36,946 nucleotides of DNA from Chloroflexota bacterium (GTDB lineage Bacteria; Chloroflexota; Dehalococcoidia; SM23-28-2; HRBIN24). This document shows, in pieces, positions 3,000 to 36,790 of this stretch. Positions within the stretch are counted from its first letter, which is position 1, and each line of letters opens with the position of its first letter. Below the pieces are notes generated by a model. The model was not told the origin of the DNA and made no database searches. It was given only the letters and a program-made list of their open reading frames with translations. Made by a program: the position numbers and the translations under genes. The stretch is from contig JAUQPQ010000004.1 in assembly GCA_030550295.1 (NCBI GenBank), positions 1 through 36,946 on the forward strand, written 5' to 3'.

Positions 3000-4877
3000 A
3001 TGACCATGTACACTATCTGCACTGCCGGCCACGTGGACCATGGCAAGTCCTCCCTTGTAAAGGCCCTTACCGGCATCGATCCTGACCGTCTGCCCGAGGA
3101 GAAGGCGCGGGAGATGACCATAGACCTGGGGTTTGCCTGGCTTCGCTTGCCATCGGGCAGGGAAGTCAGTATCGTGGACGTCCCCGGGCACGAGCGGTTT
3201 ATCCACAACATGTTGGCCGGCCTAGGGGGGATAGACCTGGCCCTTCTGGTCGTAGCTGCCGATGAGGGGGTGATGCCCCAGACTAGGGAGCACCTGGCCA
3301 TCTTAGACCTCCTTGGGGTGGAGCATGGGGTGGTGGCCATCACTAAGAAGGACCTGGTGGAGGAGGAATTCTTGGAGCTCGTGGTCCTTGAGATACACGA
3401 GCTTTTGGACGGCACATCCCTTGCTAATATGCCAGTGGTGGCATGCTCAGCTATCACAGGAGAGGGCCTGGAAGAGTTGGTGGCTGCCCTAGACTCTCAA
3501 TTGGCTCAAACTGCCCCCAAGAGGGATATAGGTCGTCCCCGCCTCCCTATAGATAGGGTCTTTAGCCTGCCAGGGCTGGGCACTATCGTCACTGGCACCC
3601 TGGTAGACGGGTGCTTGGAGGTAGGCCAAGAGGTGGAGATCCTCCCTATTGGGGCTAGGGCCCGCATTCGCAGCATGGAGAGCCATCGTCGCCCGGTGAA
3701 CAAGGCTTTGCCGGGCGGAAGGTTGGCGCTGAACCTGCCAGGCCTTGGGGCATCTGACCTTGAAAGGGGCATGGTGGTGACCATACCTGGCTGGCTGGAA
3801 GGGGTGAAAACGTTGGACGTGAGGCTAAAGGTGGTCCCTTATTTGCGCCGCCCCGTCCGCCACAACATGGAGGTGTTCTTCCATACCGGCTCTGCCCGTG
3901 AGACGGGACGCCTTATCCTCCTCGACCGTGATGAGCTGGAGGCTGGCGAGGAGGGCTGGGCCCAGATAAGGCTACAGAACCCTGTAGCGTTGATTCGTGG
4001 AGACCGCTTTATCGTTCGCGATCCCAATGATACCCTTGGCGGAGGCGTAGTGGTGGACGTGAACGTCCCCCGCCATAGACGCTTCCACGGGGCCACCCTC
4101 AGCCGATTGGCGAGCCTTTCCAGCGCCGATCCTCGTCAGCAGATCCTTGCTTTGGTAGAACAAAAGGGGCACGTAACTTGGCGTTACCTCCTTTTCCATC
4201 TGCCTGCATCAGCCCAAGAATTGCTCAAAACTTGTGAGCTGCTCATATCGCAAGGTCTGCTGGTATCTCTTCCTCCTGATGTTATCGCTGAAGATACGGT
4301 GTTAGCTGCTGCCCAGGCGGTAGAGGCTTGGCGCAAAGAGGCAAAGGCAGCCTTAGGGGCTTACCATCGGCAGTGGCCCCTGCGCAAGGGAATGCCTAGG
4401 GAAGGGCTCCGGGTGCACTTGGGCTTGCCACCTAAAGCATTTTCAGCGCTGGTAACCCGCTGGCAGGAGGAAGGACTCCTTAAGGGGGAAGGGGACTGGT
4501 TGGCGCTGGCTACTCATGTGCCCACCCTATCTGCCCAGCAGGAGGAGGAGGCCCAAAAGGTGCTGCAGATCCTTGGCGAGCATCCCTACAATCCCCCCTC
4601 CATCTCTGACCTGGATGGGGAGGTAATAGCCTATTTAGAGGAGACAGGCCAGATAGTGCGGGTGAGCCAGGACATCGCCTTTATTTCAGAGGCGTATAAC
4701 CGCATGGTAGAACAGGTGGTAGAGGCCATATGCAAAGAAGGCCCTATAACCTTGGCTCGTGTCCGCGACATTTTGGGCACTAGCCGCAGGTGCGCCCAGG
4801 CCCTCCTGGAGCACCTAGACCAGCGACGTATCACTGTCCGCATAGGTGATGTGCGTGTGCTTAGGCAAAGGGCCTAA
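3000..4877 (+). CDS. selB: Selenocysteine-specific translation elongation factor SelB
   Basis: MTMYTICTAGHVDHGKSSLVKALTGIDPDRLPEEKAREMTIDLGFAW...DVPGHERFIHNMLAG...; C-terminal winged-helix repeats. The start at 3000 has AAAGGTGGG upstream; the ORF-track start at 2976 is an alternative. Confidence 0.93.
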   Translation: MTMYTICTAGHVDHGKSSLVKALTGIDPDRLPEEKAREMTIDLGFAWLRLPSGREVSIVDVPGHERFIHNMLAGLGGIDLALLVVAADEGVMPQTREHLAILDLLGVEHGVVAITKKDLVEEEFLELVVLEIHELLDGTSLANMPVVACSAITGEGLEELVAALDSQLAQTAPKRDIGRPRLPIDRVFSLPGLGTIVTGTLVDGCLEVGQEVEILPIGARARIRSMESHRRPVNKALPGGRLALNLPGLGASDLERGMVVTIPGWLEGVKTLDVRLKVVPYLRRPVRHNMEVFFHTGSARETGRLILLDRDELEAGEEGWAQIRLQNPVALIRGDRFIVRDPNDTLGGGVVVDVNVPRHRRFHGATLSRLASLSSADPRQQILALVEQKGHVTWRYLLFHLPASAQELLKTCELLISQGLLVSLPPDVIAEDTVLAAAQAVEAWRKEAKAALGAYHRQWPLRKGMPREGLRVHLGLPPKAFSALVTRWQEEGLLKGEGDWLALATHVPTLSAQQEEEAQKVLQILGEHPYNPPSISDLDGEVIAYLEETGQIVRVSQDIAFISEAYNRMVEQVVEAICKEGPITLARVRDILGTSRRCAQALLEHLDQRRITVRIGDVRVLRQRA

Positions 4878-13301: not shown

Positions 13302-13796
13302 TCAGCGGAGCTGATGGGGTGATGCCTCTCCTCGTAGCAACTCCAGGAGGTGGGGCAGAACGGGGACGAGCACTTGCAGGGCCTCCCTTACCCCTTTGGG
13401 GCTACCAGGCAGGTTGACGATAAGGGTCTTGCCACGAGCACCAGCCACGCCCCGGCTAAGCATGGCTAAGGGCGTATTTTTAAGGCCTTCTACCGTTATG
13501 GCCACCATGAGACCTGGTGCCTCCCTATCTAATACTGCCCGCGTGGCCTCTGGGGTGACGTCCCTGGGACCAAATCCCGTCCCGCCGGTGGTCACTATCA
13601 GGTCCACCCCCACATCGTCAGCCCACTGGCGTAATCGGGCCTCTATCACTTCCTGCTCGTCGGGCACCACCTCATACCGCTCTATCTCGATGCCGCAAGA
13701 AGACAAGACCTCCTTTATGACCTCTCCGCTCTCGTCACGCCTAAGGCCTTTGGAGCCGGCATCAGATACCGTAAGAACCCCTGCCCGAAACGCCAC
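13302..13796 (-). CDS. Molybdenum cofactor biosynthesis MogA/MoaB family protein
   Basis: 164 aa, apparent GTG start. GVLTVSDAGSKG, TTGGTGFGPRDVTPEAT, LIVNLPGSPKGVREAL. Confidence 0.9.
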   Translation of the reverse strand: MAFRAGVLTVSDAGSKGLRRDESGEVIKEVLSSCGIEIERYEVVPDEQEVIEARLRQWADDVGVDLIVTTGGTGFGPRDVTPEATRAVLDREAPGLMVAITVEGLKNTPLAMLSRGVAGARGKTLIVNLPGSPKGVREALQVLVPVLPHLLELLRGEASPHQLR

Positions 13797-13805
13797 CTTT
13801 ACGCA

Positions 13806-13828
13806 CCTGTGGAAATGGTGTGGATAAA
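13806..13828. promoter_or_regulatory. Bipartite DnaA-box-like element CCTGTGGAAATGGTGTGGATAAA
   Basis: TGTGGATAA (13819-13827) is the reverse complement of the perfect DnaA box TTATCCACA. TGTGGAAAT (13808-13816) is an 8/9 match to TTWTNCACA. 19/23 identical to 29915-29937. Confidence 0.5.
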
Positions 13829-13863: not shown

Positions 13864-13898
13864 TGGTATGATGTGGGAGAAAGTGGGGAAGGGTGGTA
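13864..13898 (+). promoter_or_regulatory. MraZ operator: four TGGnn repeats at 10-bp spacing, overlapping a TATGAT -10 element (13867-13872)
   Basis: TGGTA(13864) n5 TGGGA(13874) n5 TGGGG(13884) n5 TGGTA(13894), just upstream of mraZ. Known MraZ sites are TGGGN repeats with 5-nt spacers. Confidence 0.75.
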
Positions 13899-13951: not shown

Positions 13952-14395
13952 ATGGGGATGGGCGGGAGGAAGACGGTGTTTAGGGGGACGTATGAATACT
14001 CCATGGACGATAGGGGGCGGTTACCTATCCCGGCGCGTTACCGTCACCTGTTCACCGGGGGGGTCAAGCTCACCCTCAGCCCCGATGGCTGTGTGGAGGT
14101 ATGGACCAACGAGGGGTTCGAGAAAATGGAGGCGAAAGTGATGCTGGAGCCGCCTACTACCCTCAAGGGAAGGCGCCTGCGCCGGGGGTTTTCGGTGCGC
14201 TCCTGGGATGCAGAGCTAGATAGGCAGGGACGCCTACTCATCCCCCAGTACCTACGGGAGAAGGCGGCATTAGATGGGAACGTCATCGTGGCTGGACGCA
14301 TCGAGTGCCTAGAGATATGGAACCCCAAGCGATGGGAGGAGGAGATGGCCCAGGTGGAGGCCACTTATAAGGAGGAACTGGAATCACTGCGGTAG
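13952..14395 (+). CDS. mraZ: Transcriptional regulator / cell division protein MraZ
   Basis: FRGTYEYSMDDRGRLPIPARYR...LTLSPDGCVEVWTNEGFEKMEAKV...ELDRQGRLLIPQYLREKAAL (two AbrB-like repeats). Start 13952 or 13958, downstream of the MraZ boxes; the track start at 13820 is too early. Confidence 0.93.
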   Translation: MGMGGRKTVFRGTYEYSMDDRGRLPIPARYRHLFTGGVKLTLSPDGCVEVWTNEGFEKMEAKVMLEPPTTLKGRRLRRGFSVRSWDAELDRQGRLLIPQYLREKAALDGNVIVAGRIECLEIWNPKRWEEEMAQVEATYKEELESLR

Positions 14396-29914: not shown

Positions 29915-29937
29915 CCTGTGGACAAGGTGTGGATATG
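29915..29937. promoter_or_regulatory. Bipartite DnaA-box-like element CCTGTGGACAAGGTGTGGATATG, with a third box-like site CTTTCCACA at 29904-29912
   Basis: TGTGGACAA (29917-29925), TGTGGATAT (29928-29936) and CTTTCCACA are each 8/9 to TTWTNCACA. Near-duplicate of 13806-13828. Confidence 0.45.
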
Positions 29938-29984
29938 CCACAAGATATTGGGTTTGGGGGGTTGACAAGGTCAAGATATTGTGG
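29938..29984. promoter_or_regulatory. Tandem NrdR boxes: CCACAAGATATTGGGT (29938-29953) and GGTCAAGATATTGTGG (29969-29984)
   Basis: Both contain CAAGATATTG, matching the NrdR-box core acaCwAtATaTwGtgt. Exactly 31 bp centre to centre, the classical NrdR spacing, directly upstream of nrdR. Confidence 0.9.
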
Positions 29985-29990
29985 TAGAGT
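29962..29990 (+). promoter_or_regulatory. Sigma70-type promoter of nrdR: TTGACA(29962-29967)-N17-TAGAGT(29985-29990)
   Basis: Perfect -35 hexamer, 17-bp spacer, 4/6 -10 hexamer. NrdR box 2 lies in the spacer. Confidence 0.75.
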
Positions 29991-30003: not shown

Positions 30004-30573
30004 ATGGAGTGTCCGTTCTGTGGGCATGGGGAATCGCGGGTAGTGGACTCGCGGCCGACGGTTGGTGGGGTGAGGAGGCGTCGCGAGTGTGTGGGGTGTG
30101 GTCGTCGTTTCACCACCATGGAGAGGGTAGAGCTAGAGGATGTCATGGTGGTGAAGAAGGATGGTCGGCGGGAGCCGTTCTCGCGGGAGAAGATCCTTGC
30201 TGGGGTTCGCAAGGCATGTGAGAAGCGTCCCATACCTACCGGCGCTCTGGAAGAGCTGGTGGAGCGGGTAGAACGGGAAGTCTACTCCTTGGGCAAGGCC
30301 GAGGTGCCGACGAGCTACATAGGTGATTTGGTGATGGATGGGCTTAGACAGCTGGACCGCATCGCTTATATCAGGTTCGCTAGTGTGTACCGGGCCTTCG
30401 CCGATGTGGACGAGTTGGAGCGTGAGTTAGAGGCCCTCAAGGCTGGTTGGCCTCGGCCTGATGTGCCCCCGGGACAGCTGGTGTTACTGCCTGAGGTAAA
30501 GGCCGCCTCAAGGTTGTCGGGACGTGGTGCGGCATCTTCGTGGAGCAGGCGGCGACGGGTTAGTAGGGGCTAA
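30004..30573 (+). CDS. nrdR: Transcriptional repressor NrdR
   Basis: MECPFCGHGESRVVDSRPTVGGVRRRRECVGCGRRFTTMERVE zinc ribbon plus ATP-cone (VVKKDGRREPFSREKILAGVRKACEKRPI...YIRFASVYRAF). Canonical MECPFC start at 30004, not the track start at 29929. Confidence 0.96.
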   Translation: MECPFCGHGESRVVDSRPTVGGVRRRRECVGCGRRFTTMERVELEDVMVVKKDGRREPFSREKILAGVRKACEKRPIPTGALEELVERVEREVYSLGKAEVPTSYIGDLVMDGLRQLDRIAYIRFASVYRAFADVDELERELEALKAGWPRPDVPPGQLVLLPEVKAASRLSGRGAASSWSRRRRVSRG

Positions 30574-30642: not shown

Positions 30643-33366
30643 ATGATAGAGGTAAGCTCAGACCAGTCGCTTCGCATCTCTCGCTTCTTCACGCGGCCAG
30701 GGGTAGACCCTTTCCAGGAGGTAGAGTGGGAGGAGCGTAACGCCGTCATTGAGGGCCCCGATGGCAAGCCCGTATTCCAGCAAGAAGGGGTGGAGTTTCC
30801 GGCCTTTTGGAGCCAACATGCTACCAACGTTGTCGCCTCTAAGTACTTCCGTGGCCAGCTAGGTACGCCCCAAAGGGAACGCTCGGTACGTCAGCTCATC
30901 TCGAGGGTGGTGGATACCATTACTTGCTGGGGCAGAGATGGAGGATATTTCGCCACTGAGGAGGAGGCGGAGACCTTCCGCCAGGAGCTTAAGTACCTTC
31001 TTTTGCACCAAATGGCTGCCTTCAACTCCCCTGTTTACTTCAACGTGGGTATAGAAGAGAGGCCCCAGTGCTCGGCCTGTTTCATCCTCTCGGTAGAAGA
31101 CAATATGGAGTCCATACTGGATTGGTACAAGACAGAGGGGAAGATTTTCAAAGGCGGCTCGGGATCTGGGATCAACCTCTCCTCCCTTAGGTCATCCAAG
31201 GAACCCCTCTCCTCTGGGGGCATGGCCTCTGGGCCTGTCTCCTTTATGCGGGGCGCCGATGCCATCGCTGGCACCATCAAGTCAGGTGGGAAGACGCGCC
31301 GGGCGGCCAAGATGGTAATCCTCAACGTGGACCACCCTGACATTGAGGAGTTCATCTGGTGCAAGGCGAAGGAGGAGCGCAAGGCGCGTGCCCTAGCCCA
31401 GGCCGGCTGGGATTCCTCTTTAGACTCTGACCTTTGGATATCCATCCAGTACCAGAACGCCAATAACTCGGTGCGCGTGACCGATGATTTCATGCGCGCT
31501 GTCATAGAAGACCGGGAGTGGCATACGCGCTATGTCACTACGGGCCAAATATGCTCCACCTACAGGGCACGCGACCTTTTGCGACAGATGGCACAGGCCG
31601 CTTGGGAGTGCGCTGACCCAGGCATCCAGTACGACACCACCATCAACGACTGGCATACATGTCCTAACTCGGGGCGCATCAATGCTAGCAACCCCTGCTC
31701 CGAATACATGCACTTGGACGACTCGGCCTGTAACCTGGCCTCCCTCAACCTCCTCAAGTTCCTGCGGGAAGACTATACCTTTGACGTTGAGGCCTTCAAG
31801 CGGGCAGTGGAGGTAATGATCACCGCCCAAGAGATCATCGTGGACAATGCCTCCTATCCTACCGATAAGATTGCGCGCAATGCCCACAACTATCGCCAGT
31901 TGGGGCTGGGCTACACCAACTTGGGGGCCTTGCTCATGACCCTCGGCTTGCCTTACGACTCAGAACAGGGGCGAGCGTATGGGGCGGCCGTAACTGCCCT
32001 CATGAGTGGCTATGCCTACGCCGTCTCGGCCCGCATCGCTGCCCGCCTGGGCCCCTTCCCAGGGTATGAGGCCAACCGGGAGCCCATGTTGAGAGTGATA
32101 AGCAAGCACCGAGAACACGCCTACCGTATCTATGAGCTGGGCCGCTACGGTCGCCTGGCCTCGGAGCCCGAACTTGGGGAGCCGGAATGGGCAGCCCAAG
32201 TACCGGGCCTTTTGGAGCTAGTGGCCGCTGCCCGCCAAAGCTGGGACGAAGCTCTTGCCCTAGGTAAGGCTCACGGCTACCGCAATGCCCAGGTGACCGT
32301 AATCGCCCCCACGGGGACGATCAGCTTCATGATGGACTGCGATACCACTGGCATTGAGCCCGAGCTGGCCCTGGTGAAATACAAGCTCCTGGTAGGGGGA
32401 GGGATGATGCGGCTGGTGAACCGGGCCGTTCCCAGGGCCCTGCAGCGGCTAGGCTACTCGCGCGACCAAATAGAGGCGATAGTGGCCTACGTAGAGGCCC
32501 ACGGCACCATGGAGGGTGCTCCTCACTTGCGAGAGGAACACTTGCCTGTCTTCGACTGCGCCTTCAAGGCGCCAGAGGGCCAACGTTTCGTCCACTGGAT
32601 GGGCCACATTCGCATGATGGGCGCCGTCCAGCCCTTTATCTCTGGCGCCATCTCCAAGACGGTCAACTTGCCCGAAGATGCCACGGTGGAGGATGTGGAG
32701 CAGGCCTTCGTTGAGGGATGGCGACATGGGCTAAAGGCCCTCTCCATCTACCGCAACGGTAGCAAGACCACCCAGGTGTTGGTGACCGAGCTCCAGGAGG
32801 AGAGGCCAAAGCCAGTGCGCCGTCGCCTGCCTGATACCCGTCAGTCCCTCACCCATAAGTTTGCGGTGGGAGGTCACGAGGGCTACATCACCGTAGGCCT
32901 GTATGAGGACGGCTTCCCTGGTGAGATCTTCATCACCATGGCCAAGGAGGGCTCCACCCTCTCCGGCATGGCCGATGCCTTTGCAACGGCCATCTCCTTG
33001 GCCCTCCAGTATGGGGTGCCCTTGCGCGACCTGGTCTACAAGTTCAGCCACATGCGCTTCGAGCCTTCTGGGCCCACTGGCAACCCAGAGATCCCCATAG
33101 CCCAGAGCATAGTAGACTATATCTTCCGGTGGCTCGGTTCCCAGTTCCTCTCGGACGAGGAGAAAGCAGAGCTGGGCATCGTCACCCCAGAGGTTCGAGA
33201 GAAGCTTGCCCGCCTCCAGCCTAAGCAGCTCCCCTTGCTGGAGGTAGCAAGGAATGGCCCCGCCCGTGACGATGCCCCACCCTGCCCCAGCTGTGGCTGT
33301 ATCATGGTGCGCCGGGGCGCCTGCTACTGCTGCGATAACTGTGGCACCACCACCGGCTGCAGCTAG
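30643..33366 (+). CDS. nrdJ: Vitamin B12-dependent (class II) ribonucleotide reductase, type with NPCSEY motif
   Basis: 907 aa. NSPVYFNVG, CSACFILSVEDN, NPCSEYMHLDDSACNLASLNLL, APTGTISFMMDCDTTGIEPELAL, KTVNLPEDAT; C-terminal [21 protein letters not shown] module and CPSCG...CCDNCG. RBS GGGGGAGG. Confidence 0.95.
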   Translation: MIEVSSDQSLRISRFFTRPGVDPFQEVEWEERNAVIEGPDGKPVFQQEGVEFPAFWSQHATNVVASKYFRGQLGTPQRERSVRQLISRVVDTITCWGRDGGYFATEEEAETFRQELKYLLLHQMAAFNSPVYFNVGIEERPQCSACFILSVEDNMESILDWYKTEGKIFKGGSGSGINLSSLRSSKEPLSSGGMASGPVSFMRGADAIAGTIKSGGKTRRAAKMVILNVDHPDIEEFIWCKAKEERKARALAQAGWDSSLDSDLWISIQYQNANNSVRVTDDFMRAVIEDREWHTRYVTTGQICSTYRARDLLRQMAQAAWECADPGIQYDTTINDWHTCPNSGRINASNPCSEYMHLDDSACNLASLNLLKFLREDYTFDVEAFKRAVEVMITAQEIIVDNASYPTDKIARNAHNYRQLGLGYTNLGALLMTLGLPYDSEQGRAYGAAVTALMSGYAYAVSARIAARLGPFPGYEANREPMLRVISKHREHAYRIYELGRYGRLASEPELGEPEWAAQVPGLLELVAAARQSWDEALALGKAHGYRNAQVTVIAPTGTISFMMDCDTTGIEPELALVKYKLLVGGGMMRLVNRAVPRALQRLGYSRDQIEAIVAYVEAHGTMEGAPHLREEHLPVFDCAFKAPEGQRFVHWMGHIRMMGAVQPFISGAISKTVNLPEDATVEDVEQAFVEGWRHGLKALSIYRNGSKTTQVLVTELQEERPKPVRRRLPDTRQSLTHKFAVGGHEGYITVGLYEDGFPGEIFITMAKEGSTLSGMADAFATAISLALQYGVPLRDLVYKFSHMRFEPSGPTGNPEIPIAQSIVDYIFRWLGSQFLSDEEKAELGIVTPEVREKLARLQPKQLPLLEVARNGPARDDAPPCPSCGCIMVRRGACYCCDNCGTTTGCS

Positions 33367-34486: not shown

Positions 34487-36790
34487 ATGGCAGAGATAGC
34501 TCTGAGCGATAACGCCCGCATCGTTCTAGAGCGGCGGTATTTGGCCAAGGACGAAAGAGGGCGCCCCACAGAGACTCCGGAGGAGATGTTCCGGCGGGTG
34601 GCCCACAACGTGGCCCAGGCCGAGCTCCTCTATCAGCCTTTGGAAGATCATGCCCGTGCTGCCTATTGGGAGGAGGAATTCTATCGCCTTATGACTTCTC
34701 TGGAATTCCTCCCCAACTCCCCCACCCTCATGAACGCTGGCCGTGAGCTGCAGCAGCTGGCTGCGTGCTTCGTTTTGCCCGTGGAGGACTCCATAGAGGG
34801 GATATTTGAGACGATTAAGGAGACGGCCATCATTCACAAGACGGGCGGAGGCACGGGCTTCTCCTTTTCGCGCCTGCGGCCGGAAGGGGACAGGGTGCGT
34901 ACTACTATGGGCATAGCATCGGGCCCCGTCTCCTTCATCAAGGTCTTCGATGCCGCCACTGAGGCGATAAAGCAGGGGGGGACCCGGCGTGGTGCCAACA
35001 TGGGCATTCTTCACATCTCCCATCCCGATATAGAGAAGTTCATAACCCTTAAGGTAGACGGGCGCACTCTGCCCAACTTCAACATATCCGTAGCAGTGAC
35101 CGATGAGTTCATGGAGGCGGTGGAGGTGGGCAAGGATTTCCCGTTGGTGAACCCCCGCACGGGAGAGGTAGTGGCCCAAAGGCCAGCCCGACACCTGTTC
35201 GACCTCATAGTGGACAGCGCCTGGCAGTGTGGCGACCCTGGCCTGGTGTTCATCGACCGCATCAACGCTGCCAACCCTACTCCTCATCTGGGAAAGATAG
35301 AGGCCACAAACCCCTGTGGCGAGCAGCCCCTCTTGCCGTACGAGTCCTGCACCCTGGGCTCTATCAACTTAGGGAAGTTCGTCAAGGAGGAGGGGCAAAA
35401 GAGGCGCGTCTATTGGGAGAAGTTGGCCCAAGTGATACCCGTATGTGTCCGCTTCTTGGACGACGTTATCGACGTCAACCGTTATCCTACCCCCCGCATC
35501 GCTGAGGCCACCAAGAAGACGCGCAAGATAGGGCTAGGGGTAATGGGCTGGCACGATTTGCTCCTACGCCTGGGCATCCCCTACGACTCGGAAGAGGCCT
35601 TGGCCTTGGCCGAGGAGGTGATGGGTTTCATCCAGGACAAGGCCAACGAAGCCTCCCTAGCTCTGGCCGAGGAGAGGGGCACGTATCCGGCGTGGGAGGG
35701 CTCTCGTCACTATCCCCATTACCCCTATCGCAACGCCACCCGCACCACCATCGCCCCTACGGGTACTATCTCCATCATTGCTGGCTGCTCCTCAGGCATT
35801 GAACCTCTCTTCTCCCTCGCCTTCTACAGGCATCATTACCTAGACCCTGAAGATCCCAGCCGGATAACCCGCCTAAAGGAGGTGAACCCTTACTTCGTGG
35901 AGGTAGCCCAGAGGGAGGGATTTTACTCCGAGGAGCTGGTGGAGTTTTTGGCCCAGGGCGGCAAGTTGAGGGAGCGTCCTGAGGTGCCCGATTGGGCCAA
36001 GCGCCTCTTTGTGACTGCCTTGGACATAAGCCCCGAGGGGCATGTGCGGATGCAGGCTGCCTTCCAACGCCATACCGACAACGCTGTCTCTAAGACTATC
36101 AATTTGCCCAAGGACGCCACTAGGGAGGATGTGGCAGGGGCCTTCTGGCTGGCCTACCGAGAGGGGGTCAAAGGTATCACCGTCTTTCGCGAGGGGTCCA
36201 AGTTTATGGCCGTCCTATCCCACGCTACGGCCAATCTACCGGGGCCAGAACAAGAAGCTGGGCCGGTGGCTAAGGAATTAGGATCGCAGGTGCGCCGTCC
36301 CCTTCCCTACAGGGAGCGCCTGCCCGATGAGCGGCGCTCTATCACCCACAAGTTCCGGGTAGGGGAGCAGGAAGGCTACATAACGGTAGGGCTATATGAT
36401 GATGGGCGTCCTGGGGAGATATTCATAAAGATAGCCAAAGAGGGCTCTACCGTATCTGGGCTTATGGATGCCGTTGCCCTCCTCACCTCGGTGGCCCTGC
36501 AGTATGGCGTCCCGGCAGAAGAGTTGGCCCGCAAGCTGAAAAATACCCGTTTTGAGCCTTATGGCCCCACCAATAACCCTCGCATACCCTGGGCTACCTC
36601 GATAGTAGACTACATATTCCGGTGGCTGGAGATGAAGTTCTCGCAGCCGGGTGGGCCAGCAGAGCCGCTGGATCCTGCCATGCGCCCTGGAGAGCAGACG
36701 GGCATGACCTGCCCTGAGTGTGGTGCCCTTCTGATCTACCAGGAGGGCTGTCTTGTGTGCCGAAGCTGCGGCTATAACAAGTGCGGATGA
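34487..36790 (+). CDS. nrdJ: Adenosylcobalamin-dependent (class II) ribonucleotide reductase, type with [14 protein letters not shown] motif
   Basis: 767 aa. [105 protein letters not shown]-terminal [21 protein letters not shown] and CPECG...[10 protein letters not shown]. Confidence 0.95.

Follow-up and report, generated by a model that had tools for sequence, protein, structure and literature searches.

A predicted double DnaA box at the nrdR, mraZ and xerD promoters of one family of Dehalococcoidia

Studies of the replication initiator DnaA in several bacteria have revealed roles in transcription as well as at the origin. In Escherichia coli, ChIP-seq located in vivo binding mainly at pairs of DnaA boxes that lie 2 or 3 bp apart, and the targets of these double boxes include nrdA, nrdD, purH, polA, dnaA and oriC (Stringer et al. 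2024, PMC11317965). At purH, mutation of either box, or insertion of a single base pair between the two, greatly reduces binding (PMC11317965). The effect on transcription can go both ways: DnaA activates and represses E. coli nrdAB, depending on its level and on the bound nucleotide (PMC8203912). Division genes are also involved, with DnaA linked to ftsL in B. subtilis and to ftsZ in Caulobacter (reviewed in PMC8203912). For the phylum Chloroflexota, our searches of the open-access literature found nothing on regulation by DnaA, and nothing that places DnaA at an mraZ or xerD promoter. Here, we describe a paired element in a Chloroflexota genome that closely resembles the E. coli double box, and consider what it might do.

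The source genome (G000; 1.58 Mb in 127 contigs) belongs to a small family of uncultured bacteria (class Dehalococcoidia, order SM23-28-2, family HRBIN24), and the window is the whole 36,946-nucleotide stretch of it that was analyzed. Two 23-mers could be read directly from this sequence, CCTGTGGAAATGGTGTGGATAAA at 13806-13828 on the mraZ side and CCTGTGGACAAGGTGTGGATATG at 29915-29937 on the nrdR side. They are identical at 19 of 23 positions, and in both the distance from one unit to the next is exactly 11 bp. Measured from start to start, the element precedes the -10 hexamer by 70 nt at nrdR (29915 to TAGAGT at 29985) and by 61 nt at mraZ (13806 to TATGAT at 13867). An earlier, sequence-only reading of this DNA had reported the same positions, match, spacing and distances, all of which proved accurate, and had proposed that a single replication-linked regulator, plausibly DnaA-ATP, coordinates the two operons.

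Each copy resolves into two 9-mers on the forward strand, separated by 2 bp. At mraZ, the units of the predicted double DnaA box are TGTGGAAAT (13808-13816) and TGTGGATAA (13819-13827); at nrdR, they are TGTGGACAA (29917-29925) and TGTGGATAT (29928-29936). The 11-bp period is thus simply the sum of a 9-mer and the 2-bp gap that divides it from the next. The unit is best described from 11 nrdR, mraZ and xerD sites, of which those at nrdR and mraZ were located gene-first and those at xerD were chosen partly by pattern. Across these 11 sites the unit reads TGTGGAnAw (reversed, wTnTCCACA) and matches the DnaA box TTnTCCACA, with TGTGGATAA, the second unit at mraZ, being a perfect copy of the E. 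coli consensus TTATCCACA. Positions 2-6 and 8 are invariant in both units, position 7 is variable and position 9 is mainly A or T, while the two gap bases and the majority of flanking columns are close to random.

The likeness to the E. coli double box (PMC11317965) therefore extends to several features: two TTATCCACA-type 9-mers in identical orientation, a gap within the 2-or-3-bp definition, and an association with ribonucleotide reductase (RNR) genes (nrdA and nrdD in E. coli). The differences are that the present element occurs in another phylum, stands before nrdR, mraZ and xerD, uses the 2-bp gap only, and is predicted from sequence. Double DnaA boxes as a kind of element, and DnaA at RNR genes as established in E. 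coli, are already known; what is new is the lineage in which the pair occurs here, its presence at mraZ and xerD promoters, and its apparent gain within one family.

How specific is the element? The paired element was searched for as TGTGGAnAnnnTGTGGAnA, in the form TGTGGANANNNTGTGGANA for the whole-genome run, with the reversed pattern as control. In the window the consensus gave two matches, the nrdR and mraZ sites, and none in 100 shuffles. The whole genome gave four rows that correspond to three distinct sites, upstream of nrdR, mraZ and xerD, since the fourth row is the xerD site counted again on the overlapping ends of contigs C43 and C119; the reversed pattern gave none. The sequence-only reading had suggested a genome scan as a check, with many copies inside genes counting against it, and few such copies were found. 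The family comparison covered four genomes (G000, G001, G002 and G003), the source genome included, and yielded 10 distinct exact sites versus none for the controls; with up to two mismatches allowed, the totals were 52 matches versus 17 for the reversed pattern. When the same four genomes were scanned for tandem pairs at every spacing between 9 and 39 bp, 10 of 12 distinct pairs had the 11-bp spacing, and the other two pairs, at 36 and 30 bp, were set aside as lying within coding genes. The gap between units is accordingly always 2 bp, and none of the other spacings from 9 to 39 bp occurs outside coding genes.

The proposed conservation of both sites was likewise borne out among orthologous promoters of the family, where the nrdR site is present in all three genomes with nrdR and the mraZ site in all four; the remaining family assembly yielded no nrdR. 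Distances to the promoter do not change: 25 nt separate the second box from TTGACA in 3/3 nrdR promoters, and 39 nt separate it from TATGAT in 4/4 mraZ promoters. The surrounding DNA has diverged considerably. Between family genomes, the stretch from box to promoter is 52-64% identical at nrdR and 38-62% at mraZ, and the 30 nt upstream of the element are 23-53% identical, while the element itself is 80-95% identical. A different picture emerges from 21 genomes of other (sister) families in the order. There, the double box is absent from nrdR and mraZ, while the NrdR-box-like repeats with TTGACA and the MraZ-type repeats are retained. No exact pair was found anywhere in 20 of these 21 genomes, and the only one, in G004, lies at neither nrdR nor mraZ. 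The pair was apparently gained at nrdR and mraZ in one family.

The core promoters beneath the two boxes look autorepressed. At nrdR, two probable NrdR box cores, CAAGATATTG at 29941-29950 and again at 29972-29981, start 31 bp apart on the forward strand and are conserved across the order. They flank the -35 hexamer TTGACA (29962-29967), which is followed by the -10 hexamer TAGAGT (29985-29990), and the two boxes overlap the RNA polymerase site. Described NrdR boxes are 16 bp long with a 15-bp spacer (PMC12176259), and the CAAGATATTG repeats next to the double box share the expected 31-bp period around the -35. The double box itself, in contrast, is not an NrdR box, and the sister families keep the CAAGATATTG repeats without it. 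The nrdR gene (30004-30573, forward strand; TIGR00244 above cut-off) is followed on the same strand by a class II (B12-dependent) ribonucleotide reductase (30643-33366) and a second class II enzyme (34487-36790), both assigned by protein-family match. In one relative (G002:C31:34655-34673, forward strand), a second, inverted double box with one mismatch lies about 100 bp upstream of the one at nrdR.

The mraZ promoter has a comparable arrangement. Its likely -10, TATGAT (13867-13872, forward strand), was missed by the consensus scan and recognized from the sequence and the relatives; the -35 is weak in the source genome and reads TTGACG in two relatives. Directly after the -10 come three GTGGG-type direct repeats with a 10-bp period, GTGGG-N5-GTGGG-N5-GTGG (13873-13896, forward strand), which are conserved in the order and probably form the MraZ operator. 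The E. coli MraZ site has the form TGGGN. MraZ sites in mollicutes are also direct repeats (PMC8475190), and those at 13873-13896 resemble them. The gene itself (13982-14395, forward strand) scores 83.5 bits against a curated NCBIfam cut-off of 98.35, so that its assignment is below threshold, yet MraZ is still the best family and the gene is in the right place, as the first of a dcw cluster that reaches ftsZ (gene names inside the cluster were read from the translations). In each case the double box is thus added upstream of a core promoter that appears to be autorepressed. Compared with the ftsL and ftsZ systems (PMC8203912), the common feature is a tie between DnaA and a division-gene promoter, here by predicted boxes; the difference is that the pair stands at mraZ, where the entire dcw cluster begins, at a fixed distance from the promoter. 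The double box on the mraZ side lies about 10 bp from the start of a divergent gene with a MoCF_biosynth domain (13302-13796, reverse strand) and may affect this gene too. In other families (for example L040, L044, L055 and L057), a conserved AATATTGCATAAGC-like stretch lies right before the -35 of mraZ and the double box is absent.

The third exact site of the source genome lies between pcm and xerD and is directed toward xerD (XerD by NCBIfam TIGR02225; PCMT by Pfam). Its coordinates are G000:C119:8851-8869 (reverse strand of C119), equivalent to C43:28-46. With up to two mismatches allowed, the pcm-xerD gap contains a site in all four family genomes, two of the copies being one base off; in the relatives it is found at G003:C3:110542, G001:C22:6647 and G002:C18:101883, with three units in a row in G002. 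A weaker double box, recognized with up to two mismatches, lies in the stretch that separates an ECF-sigma gene from a small MarR-like gene, again in 4/4 family genomes (G000:C42:11304-11322, with its orthologues in G001:C8, G002:C30 and G003:C18). This is the most degenerate copy, its second unit being degenerate, and toward the ECF-sigma gene it is followed after 39-40 nt by a conserved ATGCTAGAA. For both gaps, tblastn confirmed synteny and the orthology of the genes on either side. One candidate site each was also found at pyrG (G000) and thyX (G003). A further candidate, in the transketolase/amidohydrolase region (G000:C93 and G003:C19), was rejected: it sits at the beginning of the reading frame for the amidohydrolase (DFHVHIFPTW), and coding constraint accounts for the resemblance.

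In the class, 393 genomes were searched, four of them those of the family; outside the family, exact 11-bp pairs proved rare, with 14 sites, one per genome. Several of those that lie outside coding genes are where DnaA would be expected to act: at the dnaA promoter in two genomes (L226 and L227), in the dnaA-obg gap (L219), upstream of dnaB (L220) and of rplI (L223), and upstream of a class II RNR gene that has three consecutive boxes (L216). None of these sites played a part in the choice of the pattern. Matches in recA (L218) and in reading frames of L221, L224 and L225 were judged to be chance. The 11-bp spacing is not dominant at the class level, its 14 pairs comparing with 19 pairs spaced 12 bp, another 19 spaced 9 bp and 16 spaced 15 bp, and the class-wide argument therefore rests on the genes that are hit and not on the spacing. 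Targets concerned with replication or nucleotide synthesis are accordingly found in both sets, nrdR-nrdJ here and dnaA, dnaB and class II RNR in the class relatives. Separately, one class genome (G106) has an identical TGTGGAGAGTTGTGGATA at eight places, probably as part of a repeated element.

What protein recognizes the element? The source genome encodes a DnaA (G000:C16) that matches PF00308 and TIGR00362 and aligns over nearly its full length with solved DnaA structures. Its RDHSTV DNA-binding signature is intact, and the same signature is common to the 23 DnaA loci where this region was read. Together with the 9-mer units, the 2-bp gap and the dnaA, dnaB and RNR pairs of the relatives, this makes DnaA the best candidate, as the sequence-only reading had supposed, and we infer that DnaA binds the element. 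The broader proposal of one replication-linked regulator for both operons is also well supported, given family-wide conservation at both promoters, a fixed distance where the DNA has otherwise diverged, and another strong site before xerD. We consider it very probable that the element is a double DnaA box, which two DnaA molecules would occupy cooperatively at a fixed distance upstream of nrdR(-nrdJ), mraZ(-dcw) and xerD.

The most serious competitor is a response regulator of the OmpR/PhoB family (WalR-, MtrA- or CtrA-like), a cell-cycle or wall regulator whose winged-helix dimer would bind head to tail on 11-bp direct repeats. An 11-bp period is typical of several such regulators, including PhoB, WalR and CtrA, and so the period, strict as it is in this family, does not separate DnaA from OmpR/PhoB. 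Most members of that group do bind direct repeats in head-to-tail fashion (PMC3960148), in mycobacteria the regulation of division and wall genes is reported for MtrA (PMC6265350), and the present element resembles OmpR/PhoB operators in being a direct repeat of about one helical turn. Where it departs from those operators is in the unit, which equals the DnaA consensus and is conserved out to position 8 each time; moreover, the class relatives bear the pair at dnaA, dnaB and RNR genes. On balance, we regard an OmpR/PhoB operator as unlikely.

Another lineage-specific regulator, such as a MarR-like protein, could be suggested by the weaker copy in the ECF-sigma/MarR-like gap of all four family genomes. 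That copy is the most degenerate of all and precedes a promoter on the ECF-sigma side, not obviously the MarR-like gene, and beyond the family the relatives carry the pair where DnaA would be expected; this explanation seems very improbable. In favor of resemblance by chance, or of inherited sequence without function, one can note that there are few sites and that sister families lack the pair at these promoters. Against it stand reversed-pattern controls with no exact match, an element far better preserved than its flanks, and promoter distances that stay unchanged. Chance or a repeat artefact is ruled out by these controls together with the orthologous positions and the fixed spacing in diverged DNA, and we give the explanation hardly any weight.

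If the element is indeed a double DnaA box, DnaA would occupy the paired 9-mers as two cooperating molecules and act on transcription from upstream of the -35. Since the pair lies upstream of the -35 and the NrdR-box-like or MraZ-type repeats lie over the core promoter or start region, the simplest view is that DnaA would set how strongly the promoter works, in addition to the repression that depends on dNTPs or on MraZ. Transcription would then presumably respond to how much DnaA is present or to its bound nucleotide, and the amount or ATP state of the protein would be coupled to dNTP supply, division and dimer resolution. Given the dual action of DnaA on E. coli nrdAB, position does not predict the sign, and binding may activate or repress. 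A more ambitious proposal is that DnaA serves as a compact master cell-cycle transcription factor in this family, its boxes having been gained, at a fixed distance, in older promoters that NrdR and MraZ already autoregulated, as well as upstream of xerD, and perhaps at pyrG, thyX and the ECF-sigma/MarR gap; the case for and against this seems to us about evenly balanced. In either form, the start of DNA replication may directly tune dNTP supply, cell division and chromosome-dimer resolution, with a handful of sites linking the supply of dNTPs to the entire dcw cluster and to XerD. The result is a short list of candidate promoters for testing, and the promoters of the sister families, otherwise alike but without the pair, provide a natural comparison of with and without.

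The search for the origin of replication counts against the DnaA reading, as do the degenerate second unit at the ECF-sigma/MarR gap and the class-wide spacing. No DnaA-box cluster that might mark oriC was found in the family, whether by single boxes in the source genome, by tandem pairs in the family, or in the dnaA flanks, where boxes are scattered or degenerate. Single boxes are scarce in the source genome, with 26 matches to TGTGGANAA versus 40 to the reversed pattern. In L009, the dnaA-coaX gap (3600-3700) has one TTTTCCACA and the dnaA-obg gap (2110-2215) holds a few TTCCACA/TTTCCACA boxes; each is a possible but weak candidate for an origin.
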